Origin: Bifidobacterium psychraerophilum
GTDB taxonomy: Bacteria; Actinomycetota; Actinomycetes; Actinomycetales; Bifidobacteriaceae
Assembly: GCF_000741705.1 (NCBI RefSeq)
Contig: NZ_JGZI01000009.1
Span: forward strand, 434,001 to 498,000
DNA length: 64,000 nucleotides
Reading direction: 5' to 3'
The stretch's first letter is position 1. Each line of letters starts with the position of its first letter. The notes under the pieces were generated by a model. The model was not told the origin of the DNA and searched no databases. It was given only the letters and a program-made list of their open reading frames with translations. The position numbers and the translations under genes were made by a program. Of this stretch, positions 2,520 through 14,941 are shown in pieces.

Positions 2520-4025
2520 ATGGTATTCATGAGCGCTCAAGACAATCAACAGTTCGATCTGGCTTCGGTGTTCCCCAACAAGGGAGATGCTCGAAGGCCG
2601 CCTGAGTGGTACGGAAGGGCGTTGCTGTACACGGCAATAGCCGTGTACCTCGCATGGTTCATCTTCAGTTCCTGGGGAAAAGTCGAATTCGTCGTTCTTG
2701 ACATCATCATCTCCATTTTCATCGCGCTCGCCTTGGAGCCGCTGGTCCAGGCGATGGTGCGGCATGGTTGGCGCAGGGGCGCAGCCGCGGCGGTGTCACT
2801 GGTCGTTCTGGTGCTTGTCGTCATCGCATTGCTGGTGATGTTCGGCAATATGTTCGTGCAGCAGGTGACCGGCATGCTCGATGGTCTGCCGGATTTCTAC
2901 GATCAGATGGCTAAGACCATCGAGCAGCAGACCTCATGGCAGCTGCCGGCGATGTCGGATCTCGGCAACGAGATCGTCAAGAACATCCAGAGCTCGTGGG
3001 TCACTGATTTTGCCGGGCAGGCCATCTCCACGACGATGGGCTTCCTCAGTTTCCTGTTGAACTTCCTTACGGTTCTGCTGGTGACCTATTACATCTGCGC
3101 CGCAGGTCCGAAGATGCGCAGAAGCGTATGCCAGTGGATGAGCCAGAAAAGCCAGCGCAAATTCGTGCTGGTGTGGACCGTCGCGCAGGATCAGATCTCC
3201 AGCTTCCTGTTCAGCCGTACCGTTCTTGCAGTGATCAACAGCGTGTGCATGTCGATATTCATGGTCATCATGCATGTTCCCTATTGGCTGCCGCTCGCCA
3301 TCTTCTGCGGCTTGGTCTCGCAGTTCGTGCCCACGATCGGCACCTACATCGGCGGCGCGTTGCCGATACTCTTCGCATGGGGCAGCAACGGCCTGATGGT
3401 GGCGCTGAGTGTGCTGATCTTCATCGTCGTGTACCAGCAGATTGAGAATCTGATCTTCCTGCCCGCGGTCTCCCAGCGGACGATGGATCTCAATCCCGCC
3501 ATGGCATTCCTATCCGTGCTGGTGCTCGGATCCGTCTTCGGGGCGCTCGGCGCCTTTCTCGCCTTGCCGGTCGCCGCAAGCTTCCAGACCATATTCAAGA
3601 CCTATACCAAGCGCTATGAGTTGATAGACTCCCCGCTGATGCAGGATCCCAAGCCCGTGAAGAAATCCAAGGTGGTCGCTGGTGCGGAAGCCTTCAACGA
3701 GCATGTGATTCAGCCTGTCGCCAGCCGTATGCCGCGTGCCGCGAGCGGGTCGAGTGCCAGAGTGGTCGTCGGGGACGATGAGGTGACGAAACTGCGTGAC
3801 CAGCTCTATACCCCTCCGACCGCCGAAGCGCTGGACAGTTCCGAGACGATCGCGATTCCGAAAAACAAATCGGAGCATCGTCAGAAGGGTAAATCAGCCC
3901 TGAAGGGATTGGACGACGGCAGTGCCGATGCCGATTCCGGCGACGGCGTTGACGGCCCATCCTCCTCTGAGGGGAAACCCGTATCGAAGCCCGACAACAC
4001 TAATCCAAGGAACGACTGGCGCTAA
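2520..4025 (+). CDS. AI-2E family (PF01594) transporter
   Basis: The protein has about 501 aa and several hydrophobic segments: about residues 38-55, 60-76, 85-110, a long stretch at 170-200, and a C-terminal cluster at 235-345. The GTYIGGALP and LGSVFGALGAFLALPVAA segments are typical of PF01594 (TqsA/YdiK/YhhT-like) permeases. I chose the ATG at 2520 because AGAGGA sits about 5 nt upstream; an ATG at 2529 is the alternative. The last about 130 residues are a hydrophilic, Ser/Asp/Lys-rich tail after the last helix, which is long for the family. The stop overlaps the start of the next gene by one base (TAATG), so the two are translationally coupled. Substrates of this family vary (autoinducer, Na+/H+ antiport), so function is open. 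Confidence 0.85.
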   Translation: MVFMSAQDNQQFDLASVFPNKGDARRPPEWYGRALLYTAIAVYLAWFIFSSWGKVEFVVLDIIISIFIALALEPLVQAMVRHGWRRGAAAAVSLVVLVLVVIALLVMFGNMFVQQVTGMLDGLPDFYDQMAKTIEQQTSWQLPAMSDLGNEIVKNIQSSWVTDFAGQAISTTMGFLSFLLNFLTVLLVTYYICAAGPKMRRSVCQWMSQKSQRKFVLVWTVAQDQISSFLFSRTVLAVINSVCMSIFMVIMHVPYWLPLAIFCGLVSQFVPTIGTYIGGALPILFAWGSNGLMVALSVLIFIVVYQQIENLIFLPAVSQRTMDLNPAMAFLSVLVLGSVFGALGAFLALPVAASFQTIFKTYTKRYELIDSPLMQDPKPVKKSKVVAGAEAFNEHVIQPVASRMPRAASGSSARVVVGDDEVTKLRDQLYTPPTAEALDSSETIAIPKNKSEHRQKGKSALKGLDDGSADADSGDGVDGPSSSEGKPVSKPDNTNPRNDWR

Positions 4026-5251
4026 TGGCTCTGCTGAACATTCTTGACGTAATTCTGATGATTCTGGGTGTTGTGGGCATTCTGTACCAGGCCGTCTGCA
4101 TTCTGACCTCCTTCTTCGCCCGTCCTGTCACCTTTGCCGAGGCTCCCAAGGACAAGCATTTCGCCGTGCTCATCTCGGCGCGAAACGAGGAACTGGTGGT
4201 GGGCAACCTCATCGATTCCGTGAGGGCCCAGACCTATCCCGGCGAGCTCATCGACATATGGCTGGTCGCGGACAACTGCACCGACGATACCGCCGGGCTC
4301 GCCCGCTCGAAGGGATGCCATGTGGTGGTCCGAGACAACCTCAAGGAGGTCGGCAAGGGGTATGCGCTGACCTATCTGCTCAATCACATCATCGACTCCC
4401 AGTACTCGCACACCTACGACGCCTTCTTCGTATTCGATGCGGATAACCTGCTCGACAAGCATTACATCGAGGAAATGAACAAGGCATACCAGTCCGGCTT
4501 CAAGATCCTGACGAGTTACCGTAACTCCAAGAACTTCTCCGAGAACTGGGTATCCTCCGGTTCCGCGCTCTGGTATATCAGGGAATCGAGATTCCTGAAC
4601 TCCTCCCGTATGGTCTTCGGATCGAGCTGCCACGTCGGTGGGACGGGCTTCATGTTTTCCAGGCAGATCATGGAACGCAACAATGGCTGGAAGTTCCATC
4701 TGCTGACGGAGGATCTGGAATTCACGATGGATTCGGTGTTGCATGGGGACCGCATCGGGTATTGCGGCACCGCGATCCTGTATGACGAGCAACCGGTCAC
4801 CTTCAGGCAGAGCTGGCGTCAACGCGTGCGTTGGAGCAAGGGATTTCTGCAGGTCTTCCGTTATTACGGTCCGAGCCTGATCAAGCGGGCCATACGGGAA
4901 CGTGACTTCTCGGCGGTGGATCTGACCCTACTGATCTGTCCATTCACGGCTCTGGGAACGATCCGGGTGTTTCTGGGAGCCTTGTTCGCGATGTTCGGAT
5001 TCGTCTCCTGGGGTGGGCAATTCTCCGCACTAGGCAGTTGGGCCAGTGGCATAGCGTTGAGCATGCTGACGATGATGGGGCTTGCCGCGCTGACGATCAT
5101 CGCCGAACGCAACCGCATCGGCGCTTCGAACAAGGAGCTCTTCGCCTACTGCCTCAGCTTCCCGATCTACATGCTCAGCTACATCCCGATCTCCTTCATG
5201 GCCATATTCTCGAAGCCGGAGTGGAAGCCGATCCAGCACAGAGGCCAGTAA
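4025..5251 (+). CDS. membrane-bound family 2 glycosyltransferase
   Basis: The product has 408 aa. An N-terminal membrane helix (residues 5-30) is followed by a GT2 domain with ISARNEE, ADNCTDDT, VFDADN (D,D), TEDLEF (TED) and QRVRWSKG (QxxRW). Together these are the full signature of processive, BcsA/NodC/IcaA-like synthases. At least three more helices follow at about 290-385. This arrangement suits polymerisation or membrane-coupled transfer of a sugar from UDP-sugar at the inner face of the membrane. It is coupled by a one-base overlap to the upstream permease. The polymer made is unknown; exopolysaccharide or glycolipid synthesis are both possible. Confidence 0.85.
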   Translation: MALLNILDVILMILGVVGILYQAVCILTSFFARPVTFAEAPKDKHFAVLISARNEELVVGNLIDSVRAQTYPGELIDIWLVADNCTDDTAGLARSKGCHVVVRDNLKEVGKGYALTYLLNHIIDSQYSHTYDAFFVFDADNLLDKHYIEEMNKAYQSGFKILTSYRNSKNFSENWVSSGSALWYIRESRFLNSSRMVFGSSCHVGGTGFMFSRQIMERNNGWKFHLLTEDLEFTMDSVLHGDRIGYCGTAILYDEQPVTFRQSWRQRVRWSKGFLQVFRYYGPSLIKRAIRERDFSAVDLTLLICPFTALGTIRVFLGALFAMFGFVSWGGQFSALGSWASGIALSMLTMMGLAALTIIAERNRIGASNKELFAYCLSFPIYMLSYIPISFMAIFSKPEWKPIQHRGQ

Positions 5252-10581: not shown

Positions 10582-11131
10582 TATTCAATCGGATATTGAC
10601 CACGAGTTGGTTTCGAAGCAACAAATCGACGCGAAGATCAAATCAGTAGCCAAACAAGTAAGTATCGATTATGCCGACGAGCCACCGCTGTTGGTGGCCG
10701 TGCTCAAGGGGGCGGTGAATACCCTGACCGCTTTTTCGCAAGCCCTGAGCATCCCGGTGCAGATGGATTTCATGAGTCTTTCCAGCTACGGGAATGGGAC
10801 CGAAAGCACTGGAACCATTACCGTTCGTCAGGATCTGAGCGTTGATGTTCGCGGCAGGCACATTCTCATAGTCGAGGATATTGTTGATTCAGGCCGGACG
10901 TTGAATTGGCTTATGGGTGAGCTGAGAGATAGAGGAGCGGCTTCGGTGGAGGTCTTCGCCTTATTGGAGAAGCCTGCGCGGCGTGAAGTCGAATTTGATG
11001 TGAAGTACCGGGGTTTCGAGATTCCGGACGAGTTCGTGGTGGGATTCGGCTTGGATTACTGCGAAGAGTACAGGAATCTTGATTCCATAGCGGTGCTTAA
11101 ACCACAGGTGTATCAAGGAGAACATGCATGA
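10559..11131 (+). CDS. hpt: hypoxanthine phosphoribosyltransferase
   Basis: This is a purine salvage enzyme making IMP/GMP from hypoxanthine/guanine and PRPP. It has 190 aa from the first ATG, or 187 from the ATG at 10568. Neither start has a good ribosome-binding site, which suits translational coupling to tilS, whose stop is at 10579-10581. The PRPP loop VEDIVDSGRTL (about residue 103) and the flexible-loop segment FMSLSSYGNG identify it. The C-terminal FVVGFGLDYCEEYRNL is the nucleobase-binding region. It overlaps ftsH by 4 bp. Confidence 0.95.
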   Translation: MVGMQIADIQSDIDHELVSKQQIDAKIKSVAKQVSIDYADEPPLLVAVLKGAVNTLTAFSQALSIPVQMDFMSLSSYGNGTESTGTITVRQDLSVDVRGRHILIVEDIVDSGRTLNWLMGELRDRGAASVEVFALLEKPARREVEFDVKYRGFEIPDEFVVGFGLDYCEEYRNLDSIAVLKPQVYQGEHA

Positions 11132-13212
11132 GCTACCCTCAAGGGCCGCAGCAGCGACCGCCAACAGGCAATGGTGGCAATCGGCCGGGGAACGGCAACA
11201 ATCCCTTCAACAAGCAGGGCGGTAACGACAACGGCCAGATGCCGGCGAACCGACCGTTCTGGCAGATGCCTGTACTCTGGCTCGTCGTGCTGGGCCTGCT
11301 GTTCGCAGTGGCCCTGCAGCTCTTCTCCATGGGAGGGCCGAAGACCATCGACACCAAGGACGGCTTCGATCTGCTGTCCAAAGGTGAGGTGACCTACGCC
11401 GAGATCACCGAAGACAAGCAAGTGGTGACGCTGAAGCTTAAGGACGACTTCACCAAAACCAACCAGAGCACCGGCAAAACCGAGAACATGGGCAAGAACG
11501 TCCAGTTCTACTATGTCTTCGCTCAGGGCGGCCAGGTGGTTCAGGCCATCGACAAGGCGAATCCCTCAGCCGGATTCAATTCGATTGTGCCGCAGACCAG
11601 TATCTGGTCGAGCCTGCTGGTCAGCATGCTTCCTCTGCTCATCATCATGGGTGTCTTCTGGTTCTTCATGAGCCGTATGCAGGGAGGCTCGGGCGGGCTC
11701 TTCGGCATGGGTGGCAAGAAGAACTCGGGCAAGCTGCTCGATGGTAAGACCCCGAAGACCAAATTCGCCGATGTCGCCGGTGAGGCGGCCGCGGTGCAGG
11801 AGGTCGAGGAGATCAAGGACTTCCTCAAGGATCCTTCGAAGTACAAGGCCCTTGGTGCCAGGATCCCCAGGGGTGTGCTGCTGTACGGCCCTCCAGGAAC
11901 AGGTAAGACGCTGCTGGCCAGAGCGATCGCCGGTGAGGCGGCCGTTCCCTTCTACTCGATGGCGGGTTCCGACTTCGTTGAAATGTTCGTCGGACTCGGT
12001 GCCTCCCGTGTGAGGGATCTGTTCGAAGAGGCCAAGAAGACCGCTCCTGCCATCATCTTCATCGATGAGATCGACGCGGTCGGCAGGCGCAGAGGCTCAG
12101 GCATGGGTGGCGGTCATGACGAACGCGAACAGACCCTGAACCAGCTGCTGGTCGAGATGGATGGTTTCGACAACGACACGAACCTGATTATCATCGCGGC
12201 CACCAACCGTCCCGATGTGCTCGATCCGGCCCTGCTGCGTCCTGGCCGCTTCGACCGTCAGGTCGGCGTTGAGGCACCGGACCTTGAAGGCCGTGAGGCG
12301 ATCCTCAAGGTGCACGCCAAGGGCAAGCCTTTCGTCCCGAATGTCGACCTGCATATGGTGGCCGTCAGAACACCCGGCTTCACCGGTGCAGACCTGGCCA
12401 ACGTGCTTAACGAGGCCGCTCTGCTGACGGCCCGCTCCGATGCGCAGCTGATCGACAACCGTGCGATCGACGAGGCCATCGACCGCGTCCAGGCTGGGCC
12501 ACGCCGCCAATCGAAGGGCATGGCGCTCAAGGAACTGCGCAACACGGCATACCACGAGGGTGGGCATGCTCTGGTTGCGGCTGCGCTGCACAACACCGAC
12601 CCGGTCACCAAGGTGACGATTCTTCCACGAGGCCGTGCACTGGGCTACACCGCCGTGATGCCGACCGAGGATCGGTATTCGCAGTCGCGCAATGAGCTGC
12701 TCGACCAGATGGCCTATGCGATGGGTGGCAGGGCCGCGGAGGAGATCGTCTTCCACGATCCGACCACGGGAGCTTCCAACGACATCGAAAAGGCGACGAA
12801 GATCGCCCGCAAGATGGTCGTCGAATTCGGTTTCTCCGCCCGCCTGGGTTCGATCAAATGGGCCGACGACGATGACCAGACCACAGTGATGGATGGTCTT
12901 CAGCCTCGCAAGTACTCGGACGAGACCGCTCGGATCATTGATGACGAGGTGCTTGATCTGGTGGAGAAGGCTCATACCGAGGCCTGGAACATCATCAATG
13001 AGAACCGCCTGGTTCTCGATGAGCTGGTTCGCCAGCTGCTGGTCAAGGAGACCCTGAACGAGAAGGAGCTCAAAGAGGTCTTCAAGGACCTGAGAATGGC
13101 CCCTGAACGCACGGTCTGGCTCTCCAACAGCAACAGGCCTGATTCCGATATCCCTCCGGTCGAGATTCCTGAATCGCTCAAACGCGATGCAGGGTTGCAG
13201 CCGGGAGAGTGA
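11128..13212 (+). CDS. ftsH: ATP-dependent zinc metalloprotease FtsH
   Basis: A membrane-anchored AAA+ protease that degrades misfolded membrane and regulatory proteins, 694 aa. A Gly/Pro/Asn-rich cytoplasmic start is followed by TM1 (about 50-70), a periplasmic-side domain and TM2 (about 160-183). Then come the AAA module with GPPGTGKT (about 254), FIDEID and the SRH arginines ([18 protein letters not shown]), and the peptidase with HEGGH (about 476) and a downstream zinc-ligand region. The C-terminus is complete. It follows hpt with a 4-bp overlap, and its stop overlaps the GTG of the next gene (GTGA). Confidence 0.97.
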
Positions 13213-14354
13213 CCTTTGGTCTAGATCAGAGCATGGACGCAATACAACTGACGGGAATCCAGCCAAGTGACGCTGCAATGGGCGGCGGCACGGCGGCTGG
13301 ATTCCCGTCTTTCGAAGCCGATGTCACACTCCATATGGATCTGGCCGAAGCAGGGGCGAGCGGCGACATTACTACGACGGTCGACTACGAGCAGATCGCT
13401 CGTCGGGTGGCTTCGGCCTTGAAGGCCGGTTCGCATGATCTGATCGAATCCGTGGCCCAAAGCGTCGCCGATGCCGTTCTGTTGTCCCATCGGGTGCATG
13501 ACGTGGAGGTAACCGTTCGCCAGCACAGGCATATCTCCGGGGTGAGCTTGGGTGAGGTCGCCGTGGTGGTGAATCGCGCGAATGCCGGATCGGCCCTAGC
13601 ATCCGAGGATGCGGCGTATGCCGACACCCGACTGCCGGAGGGCGGCAAAGCCCCCACGGCCGCTTCCGTGGCCTCAGCCGAGTTGTCCGGACCCGCCCGC
13701 TCCGTGCGGGGCGATGATCCTGGGATGCGGATGTCGGGTGATGGCAGGTATGACGAGGAAGGCGCGCAGGAGGCGCTGCGCAAGGCGGAGCGCCATACAG
13801 CGGTCATCGCGATGAGCGGTGGCGACCGCAGCGTGGCCGAAGGGGCCTTCAGAACAGCCATTGTGATTCTTGACGGGGTGCCGGGGAGCCAGGTGGTCGG
13901 CATCTCCCCGCTGTATTCATATGATGCCGATACCGCGTCTGACTCCGTGCGAACGAGTGCCGTGGTGATTGTGGAATGCGTTGCAGGGCGGCAGGAACTG
14001 CTCAGCATCATGCGATCCATCGAATTCGCCCAAGGTCGGGGCGCTCGGGGGAAGGCTTCTGTGGACACCGCAGCCTCCGGGGATGCAGGTGATGAGGAAG
14101 CCCCCACGAATCAGCATGCGGCATTGGCGCTGTTACGATACGACGAGGAGAGCGCTCTCACCGGGGAACGGCAAGGGCATGGAGATCGTTCCTCGATCCA
14201 TCCCGAAGTGCTGGTGGCGTGGCATGAGCTTGACGAGGAAACGTGGGACCAGCAGACAACATCCTCACTGTCCGAGGATGAATTGAATCATGCGGAGCGT
14301 TACGCCCGCGTGAATAGGATTTCCGATGAGTGGATTCTTGGAGGCATGTCATGA
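13209..14354 (+). CDS. FolB-FolK-like fusion, apparently catalytically eroded
   Basis: Position and layout match the bifunctional dihydroneopterin aldolase/HPPK of bifidobacteria. Residues about 9-125 align to FolB (TTVDYEQIA, DLIESVAQSVAD) and 190-381 to FolK (AVIAMSGGDRS, SPLYSYD, IEFAQGR, IHPEV). Key residues look lost. The FolB HG-x-x-x-x-E block is replaced by MGGGTAAGFPSFEAD. The catalytic Lys position in the KP motif reads VRQHRH. The FolK RTLDLD metal-binding aspartates read QHAALAL. Yet the 381-codon frame is uninterrupted and overlaps ftsH (GTGA) and DUF3180 (ATGTCATGA). An ATG at 13233 is an alternative start. The linker (about 125-190) is low in complexity. folE and folP, which I expect beside these genes in related species, are not here. 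It could be a repurposed non-enzyme or a gene in decay. Confidence 0.7.
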   Translation: MTFGLDQSMDAIQLTGIQPSDAAMGGGTAAGFPSFEADVTLHMDLAEAGASGDITTTVDYEQIARRVASALKAGSHDLIESVAQSVADAVLLSHRVHDVEVTVRQHRHISGVSLGEVAVVVNRANAGSALASEDAAYADTRLPEGGKAPTAASVASAELSGPARSVRGDDPGMRMSGDGRYDEEGAQEALRKAERHTAVIAMSGGDRSVAEGAFRTAIVILDGVPGSQVVGISPLYSYDADTASDSVRTSAVVIVECVAGRQELLSIMRSIEFAQGRGARGKASVDTAASGDAGDEEAPTNQHAALALLRYDEESALTGERQGHGDRSSIHPEVLVAWHELDEETWDQQTTSSLSEDELNHAERYARVNRISDEWILGGMS

Positions 14355-14941
14355 GAGCGCGTCGCACACCCTGGTGGTATTACGTAGTCGCTATTGCGCT
14401 CGGTCTGCTCGCAGGGGCGAGTGTGGTCCGTCTGACGCAAAGCAGTCAGATATCGGTTCTCGGCGCCCCATGGTTCGTCTCCGTGATGCTGCTGCTGGTG
14501 GGTGTGGTGGTGCTGTATATGGCCTGGCAGGTGCACCTGTACGTCAAAGGCACGCGCAGGGAGATGGATTCCGCCAGAGCCGTGAACACCCTGGTGATGG
14601 CGAAGGCACTCGGGCTTGCGGGCGCAGGCCTTCTCGGATGGTACGGCGGACAGATCCTGATGAGTCTGGCTCATGCCGATGCCCCCTTTTATGCGGAGAT
14701 CATCAAGGAATGCCTGTTCAGCGCCGGAGCCGCCCTGGTCGATATGATCATCGGCATCATCTCCGAATGGCTCTGCCAGCTACCGCCGAATCAGGGTCCT
14801 GAGCATCCGAAGATGAAGGAGGCGCAGCGCCGCAAGCGTGCGGCCGGTGCGGTCAATAGTGAGTTTCGAGGTATTGAACAGCCCCGACCAATCAAATCCC
14901 CGCCGCAGGATGCCGCAGGGGGTCACGGCCTTCGACACTGA
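14351..14941 (+). CDS. DUF3180 family membrane protein
   Basis: The product has 196 aa, starting MRARRTPWWYY at the ATG overlapping the folBK-like stop, with GGAGGC 5 nt upstream. Four hydrophobic helices are seen at about residues 9-27, 40-63, 83-103 and 118-142. The C-terminal 45 residues are charged and disordered. Actinobacterial DUF3180 proteins sit directly after folK, and that context is retained here although the folK domain looks inactive. Function unknown. The stop codon lies inside a terminator-like hairpin. Confidence 0.85.
   Translation: MRARRTPWWYYVVAIALGLLAGASVVRLTQSSQISVLGAPWFVSVMLLLVGVVVLYMAWQVHLYVKGTRREMDSARAVNTLVMAKALGLAGAGLLGWYGGQILMSLAHADAPFYAEIIKECLFSAGAALVDMIIGIISEWLCQLPPNQGPEHPKMKEAQRRKRAAGAVNSEFRGIEQPRPIKSPPQDAAGGHGLRH

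Follow-up and report, generated by a model that had tools for sequence, protein, structure and literature searches.

Why should a bacterium that has apparently lost folate synthesis keep an intact gene for two fused folate enzymes, FolB and FolK (HPPK), when neither seems able to work? The question is raised by one frame in the window, the whole stretch of 64,000 nucleotides analysed here (G000:C9:434001-498000, from a source genome of 2.6 Mb in 11 contigs). A preliminary description of this frame had offered two answers, slow decay or a new, non-enzymatic role for the protein.

An intact folB-folK frame between ftsH and DUF3180

Gene order at the locus is tilS, HPRT, ftsH, FolBK ORF and DUF3180 (Table 1). 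The FolBK frame (13209-14354, 381 codons, GTG start) is open throughout, and both of its ends overlap the neighbouring genes, the GTG with the stop codon of ftsH and its own stop codon with the ATG of DUF3180. This confirms the initial impression of an intact frame coupled to both neighbours. The ATG at 13233 is the likelier start, giving a protein of 373 amino acids, because most relatives start or align at MD-x-x-x-L.

Table 1 Features of the FolBK locus in the window.
Feature	Position	Strand	Remarks
ftsH, upstream neighbour	11128..13212	+	Stop overlaps GTG of reported frame; phmmer reference
FolB-FolK fusion, presumed dead, 373 aa	13233..14354	+	Likelier ATG 13233; reported GTG 13209
FolB-like domain, residues 1-117	13233..13583	+	Lys->Gln at 13521-13523; Tyr 13386-13388 and Glu 13446-13448 kept
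Variable linker, residues 118-186	13584..13790	+	Much at low pLDDT; highest segment dN/dS in relatives
HPPK-like domain, residues 187-364	13791..14324	+	N55->Ser 13956-13958; D95, D97->Ala 14121-14123, 14127-14129
Conserved non-catalytic motif DGVPGSQVVGISPLY, residues 214-228	13872..13916	+	Invariant positions in alignments
C-terminal tail SDEWILGGMS	14322..14351	+	W-I kept across the dead copies in the two genera
DUF3180 membrane protein gene	14351..14941	+	Pfam PF11377 E 3.3e-28; start overlaps ORF stop

Catalytic residues are lost from both domains

The window protein passed the Pfam FolB cut-off (PF02152; 58.3 vs 31.8 bits, E 1.3e-15) with a match spanning only profile positions 25-112 of 113, and failed the NCBIfam folB equivalog cut-off (48.9 vs 72.15 bits). 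Relative to FolB of M. tuberculosis, E22 is replaced by Thr and K99 by Gln (Q97), so that the Lys to Gln exchange described before holds, and Y54 and E74 are kept. We take K99 and Glu22 to be catalytic, and Y54 and E74 to be pterin contacts. Across the 27 genomes of the window's genus, Y54 and E74 were each present in 27/27, K99 in 0/27 and E22, around which the alignment is gappy, likewise in 0/27. The living FolBs of the family retain K99 in 18/18 and E22 in 17/18 cases when fused to a single FolK, and both residues in 11/11 three-domain proteins.

For the second domain, no match to the Pfam HPPK profile (PF01288) was found in the window protein or its genome; 8/27 genus members passed the cut-off. 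Compared with E. coli HPPK, the window protein carries Ser for N55, Gln for R92, Ala for both D95 and D97, His for R121 and Glu for F123; H115 is not His in either alignment made, and E77 and R82 are kept. The aspartates of the RTLDLD motif thus read Ala-Leu-Ala, as had been noticed from the letters. N55, R92, D95, D97 and H115 belong to the active site of HPPK. Within the genus, N55 is kept in 2/27, R92 in 1/27, H115 in 2/27, D95 in 16/27 and D97 in 13/27 genomes, the last two columns adjoining an alignment gap in the asteroides group, where they are possibly misaligned. Since all five residues are kept in the living HPPK domains of the family (16/16 single-FolK and 11/11 first-FolK, tabulated without C_G184 and the first half of the split G080), this loss goes far beyond chance variation. 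According to the titles of the structure matches, many of the scored HPPK residues have been mutated in crystal studies.

The alignments place the catalytic Lys and Asp nowhere else in the window protein, and with E22 and K99 of FolB and N55, R92, D95, D97 and H115 of HPPK gone, the earlier claim that both active sites are lost is supported. We refer to copies of this kind as dead, inferring their inactivity from the residues. A low-confidence structure model of the window protein, built from 16 inputs (the window and 15 of 19 named loci; L086, L088, L089 and L099 left out), suggests that the FolB and HPPK folds are both kept, with residues 270-320 at pLDDT <50. The top Foldseek match of this model is the FolB-FolK of Streptococcus pneumoniae (PDB 2cg8), covering both domains at E 1.8e-8. 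With both folds apparently kept and the residues for either reaction gone, the protein would be a double pseudoenzyme.

The retained Y54 and E74, also present in 5/5 dead FolBKs of the neighbouring genus that have lost E22 and K99, would suit a sensor whose FolB-like ring binds pterin or a folate breakdown product taken up from outside and signals, perhaps to FtsH or other neighbours. We consider such a sensor unlikely, as the HPPK part no longer has N55 and F123 of its pterin site, and most of the lone or FtsH-fused domains in the neighbouring genus, described below, are without a recognisable FolB part.

No route of folate synthesis was found in the genus

Between ftsH and the ORF neither folE nor folP is present, as the preliminary description had stated, and Pfam profiles found neither gene elsewhere in the window genome. 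Profile searches across the window's genus returned DHPS, FolE and FolE2 in 0/27 genomes each (control genomes: 13/14, 11/14 and 5/14), so no route to the substrates of FolB and FolK was found. The proposed loss of folate synthesis is supported by these results. PMC10917623 gives B. asteroides, B. indicum and B. coryneforme as folate non-producers, and folE, folBK and folP as missing from most animal species. The genomes of the window's genus analysed here retain a degenerate folBK.

Among 189 Bifidobacteriaceae genomes, DHPS was detected in 78, and canonical FolB, defined by a line that we set at PF02152 E <=1e-20, in 74, all among those 78. Four genomes of 1.6-1.8 Mb (G117, G139, G147 and G149) have a DHPS match at E ~1e-56 and no canonical FolB. 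Dead folBK genes pass the Pfam FolB cut-off and can therefore mislead predictions of vitamin synthesis.

The dead protein is retained, with purifying selection in one clade

The window's genus includes Bombiscardovia coagulans, Bifidobacterium aquikefiri, B. xylocopae, B. asteroides and B. indicum. An intact frame stands directly after ftsH in 27/27 of its genomes, at 28-44% identity to the window protein and, in one of them (G014), with an altered N-terminus. Selection is well measurable in the asteroides group (13 genomes, 78 pairs), where the dead FolBK is under purifying selection: the comparison of relatives that had been proposed gave a median dN/dS of 0.120, with 0.076 for the FolB part, 0.238 for the linker and 0.088 for the HPPK part, beside 0.016 for an ftsH fragment. 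Values elsewhere were 0.172 for G005/G006/G017 (2/3 pairs usable), 0.263 for the window's own sub-lineage, from a single usable, near-saturated pair of 3, and 0.406 for the close pair G014/G015 at a dS of 0.054. For DUF3180, dN/dS was dropped because the wrong frames had been taken in many genomes. Between the window and G024, identity is 40% for FolBK, 59% for TilS, 74% for DUF3180, 93% for FtsH and 98% for HPRT; FolBK is thus the fastest-evolving gene of its cluster, which counts against a selected role.

The positions kept in >=94% of the dead copies from the two genera include D214, P217, G218, Q220, G223-Y228, V244, W330, W367 and I368, none of them among the scored HPPK residues. D214, Q220, G223 and W367 are invariant in 27 living family domains as well, but not in 22 outgroup domains (outgroup tails were taken from 22/30 loci, the other 8 being without a motif match).

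A decaying relic, or a frame kept merely as translational spacer between ftsH and DUF3180, would be in line with the missing pathway, the fast evolution within the cluster and the dN/dS of 0.406 in one very close pair. Both were nevertheless rejected as very improbable in view of the 27/27 intact frames, the dN/dS of 0.12 over 78 pairs of the asteroides group and the invariant non-catalytic residues shared by both genera. Of the two answers offered at the outset, slow decay is not borne out, the dead state being genus-wide. Instead, the marks of a pseudoenzyme occur together here, namely a kept fold, lost catalytic residues and purifying selection, the last measured in relatives rather than in the window's species.

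Related domains in the neighbouring genus

We extended the search to the neighbouring genus (112 genomes, including B. felsineum, G071), using an FtsH-fused domain as query. It matched 112/112 genomes, 46 with and 66 without DHPS; in folate makers this query could match living FolK too, and where both were listed the better match was FolK2 or the dead copy (e.g., G058 and G140). For 31 of these genomes and for the two FtsH-fused domains, the residues were examined one by one. N55, R92, H115 and F123 were kept in 0/31 (11 three-domain proteins, 15 lone domains and 5 dead FolBKs).

Three-domain FolB-FolK-FolK2 proteins were found in 11 folate-maker loci. Their FolK2 keeps N55, R92, H115 and F123 in 0/11, has the 82-91 loop deleted in 11/11 and keeps E77, D95 and D97 in 11/11, so that binding of metal or nucleotide may still be possible. 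PMC1971073 reports that FolK is internally duplicated and fused to FolB in B. longum; it adds that, wherever FolK occurs in duplicate, only experiments can decide whether both copies are active. A passage of the B. breve UCC2003 transposon study (PMC5514069) gives 4 essential genes under folate, unnamed there. In a DHPS-positive genome (L106 of G080, 3465-5005), the living FolBK breaks within FolK1 into two overlapping frames, with FolK2 intact; the split may be genuine or due to a sequencing error. Among the family genomes, a DHPS-positive locus (L112 of G187) has folP directly after ftsH and no folE labelled in the stretch.

In DHPS-negative genomes of the neighbouring genus, 14 lone domains and 4 dead FolBKs lie between ftsH and DUF3180. 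Another 20 loci gave 14 intact lone domains, two of them in genomes with DHPS elsewhere (G139 and G147); the others comprise a split domain (G125), an intact one beside a two-frame ftsH (G134), one cut by a contig end (G078), two fusions to FtsH and one locus with none (G180). The split domain (L194, 4384-5533) extends over two overlapping frames and is the sole split lone domain among the mapped loci. In the other genera of the family (50 genomes), DHPS was found in 32/50; the remaining 18, mostly small, were without a match to the genus profile.

Did the dead copies arise once or twice?

A quick tree (6/22 outgroup and 17/27 genus rows) placed the dead copies in one clade with a support of 91, long branches being flagged. 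In a thinned, more careful tree (3 outgroup and 5 genus rows, C_G140 left out) support was 57/86, and placing the genus with living enzymes was not rejected (p 0.356), nor was placing it with one living genus (p 0.238). By profile score, 8/27 genus members are nearer to living domains and 19/27, the window included, are nearer to FolK2. Dead copies in the window's genus and its neighbour may thus stem either from one duplication or from two separate losses of catalysis, and because the careful tree and the profile scores are split between one and two origins, we do not claim the window protein as a FolK2 orthologue. A quick FtsH tree requires at least 10 changes of folate state; as this tree is weak, with several rows that are short fragments and the window's genus split, no count of folate losses is given. 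Whichever origin applies, the HPPK fold seems to have had a non-catalytic role that persisted after folate synthesis was lost.

A candidate accessory of FtsH

G097 (L180) and G145 (L181), both from the neighbouring genus, carry an HPPK-like domain joined in frame to the C-terminus of FtsH, giving proteins of 955 and 958 amino acids; the fused domains were matched at E 6.5e-24 and 5.5e-23, respectively, in a small search set. A comparison of these two genomes gave dN/dS values of 0.026 (FtsH), 0.627 (linker) and 0.138 (fused domain); both ends of the fusion are therefore still under selection. The FtsH role that this fusion points to is merely suggested, because it represents one event in two sister genomes, between genes that were already neighbours. 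Both a fixed ftsH neighbourhood (27/27 downstream) and genetic fusion (two cases), as would be expected of an FtsH accessory, are nevertheless observed. In G140, which holds both copies, the dead one directly follows ftsH, ahead of folE-folP-folBK; this locus (L100, 3504-7188) carries ftsH, dead FolBK, folE, folP, living FolBK and DUF3180 together. Three observations count against a link to FtsH. In the 11/11 intact three-domain loci, folE and folP separate FolK2 from ftsH; in a 0.8 Mb genome (L182 of G180), ftsH adjoins DUF3180 with no FolBK remnant between them; and no change in the FtsH C-terminal tail was found that tracks presence of the domain.

Apart from the pterin sensor, the main rival to an FtsH accessory is a partnership with the second fixed neighbour, the DUF3180 membrane protein. 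The DUF3180 start codon overlaps the ORF stop, and in the mapped loci the two genes lie side by side. Its occurrence in 186/189 family genomes, however, including some without the dead protein, makes co-occurrence uninformative, and the observed fusion joins FtsH, not DUF3180; we regard this partnership as rather improbable.

Because relatives keep the dead protein intact and a related piece is fused to FtsH in a small branch, the dead FolBK has probably been reused for another job, which favours the second answer of the preliminary description, a non-enzymatic role; related dead HPPK domains persist throughout the neighbouring genus, too, folate makers included. Our preferred reading, with a probability of about 0.55, is a FolBK pseudoenzyme that is under selection without being catalytic and most likely serves FtsH as an accessory. 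From the sequences we infer the partnership and its possible action as follows. FolBK of this group would carry a second, non-catalytic role, mainly via the HPPK fold, and would be kept for this reason. Putative marks of this role are the DGxPGxQxxGISPLY stretch and the W-I-L-G-G tail, unlike most of the outgroup HPPKs examined. The likeliest role would be that of an accessory of the membrane protease FtsH, e.g., an adaptor or regulator on the cytosolic side, and one sub-lineage of the neighbouring genus has incorporated a related domain into the FtsH chain.

Comparison with known systems

A survey of open-access literature listed no paper on a dead FolBK or FolK in bifidobacteria or on a link of these to FtsH. 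We tentatively propose, at somewhat less than even odds, an undescribed FtsH accessory module derived from dead folate enzymes in Bifidobacterium and its sister genus, with an HPPK-derived domain in all 139 genomes searched, freestanding, behind a living enzyme or fused to FtsH, in folate makers or not. If true, a major group of gut bacteria would have recruited a vitamin enzyme to partner a membrane protease of the AAA+ class. The states from living enzyme, through a living and a dead copy side by side and a dead copy by itself, to the FtsH-fused domain would then form a natural series in which the gain of a pseudoenzyme role is directly testable.

With the FolBK of folate-making Bifidobacteriaceae (ftsH-folE-folP-folBK-DUF3180), the window protein shares locus, domain order and the W-I-L/V tail; it differs in being without catalytic residues in both domains, and folE and folP are absent. 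The streptococcal 2cg8 is an enzyme by its title, and its two domains are not superposable together on the window model (rmsd 12.6). In FolB-FolK-FolK2 proteins, of the kind described from B. longum, the second FolK is dead as HPPK, too (11 examined). FolK2 of folate makers, unlike the protein of the window's genus, follows a living FolBK; it also bears the 82-91 loop deletion, which the least-derived members of the window's genus do not have. The FtsH-HPPK fusion of G097 and G145 contains a related dead HPPK domain, as found in the window's genus, but is a single polypeptide without the FolB part and, unlike the window protein, forms the longest branch of the set.
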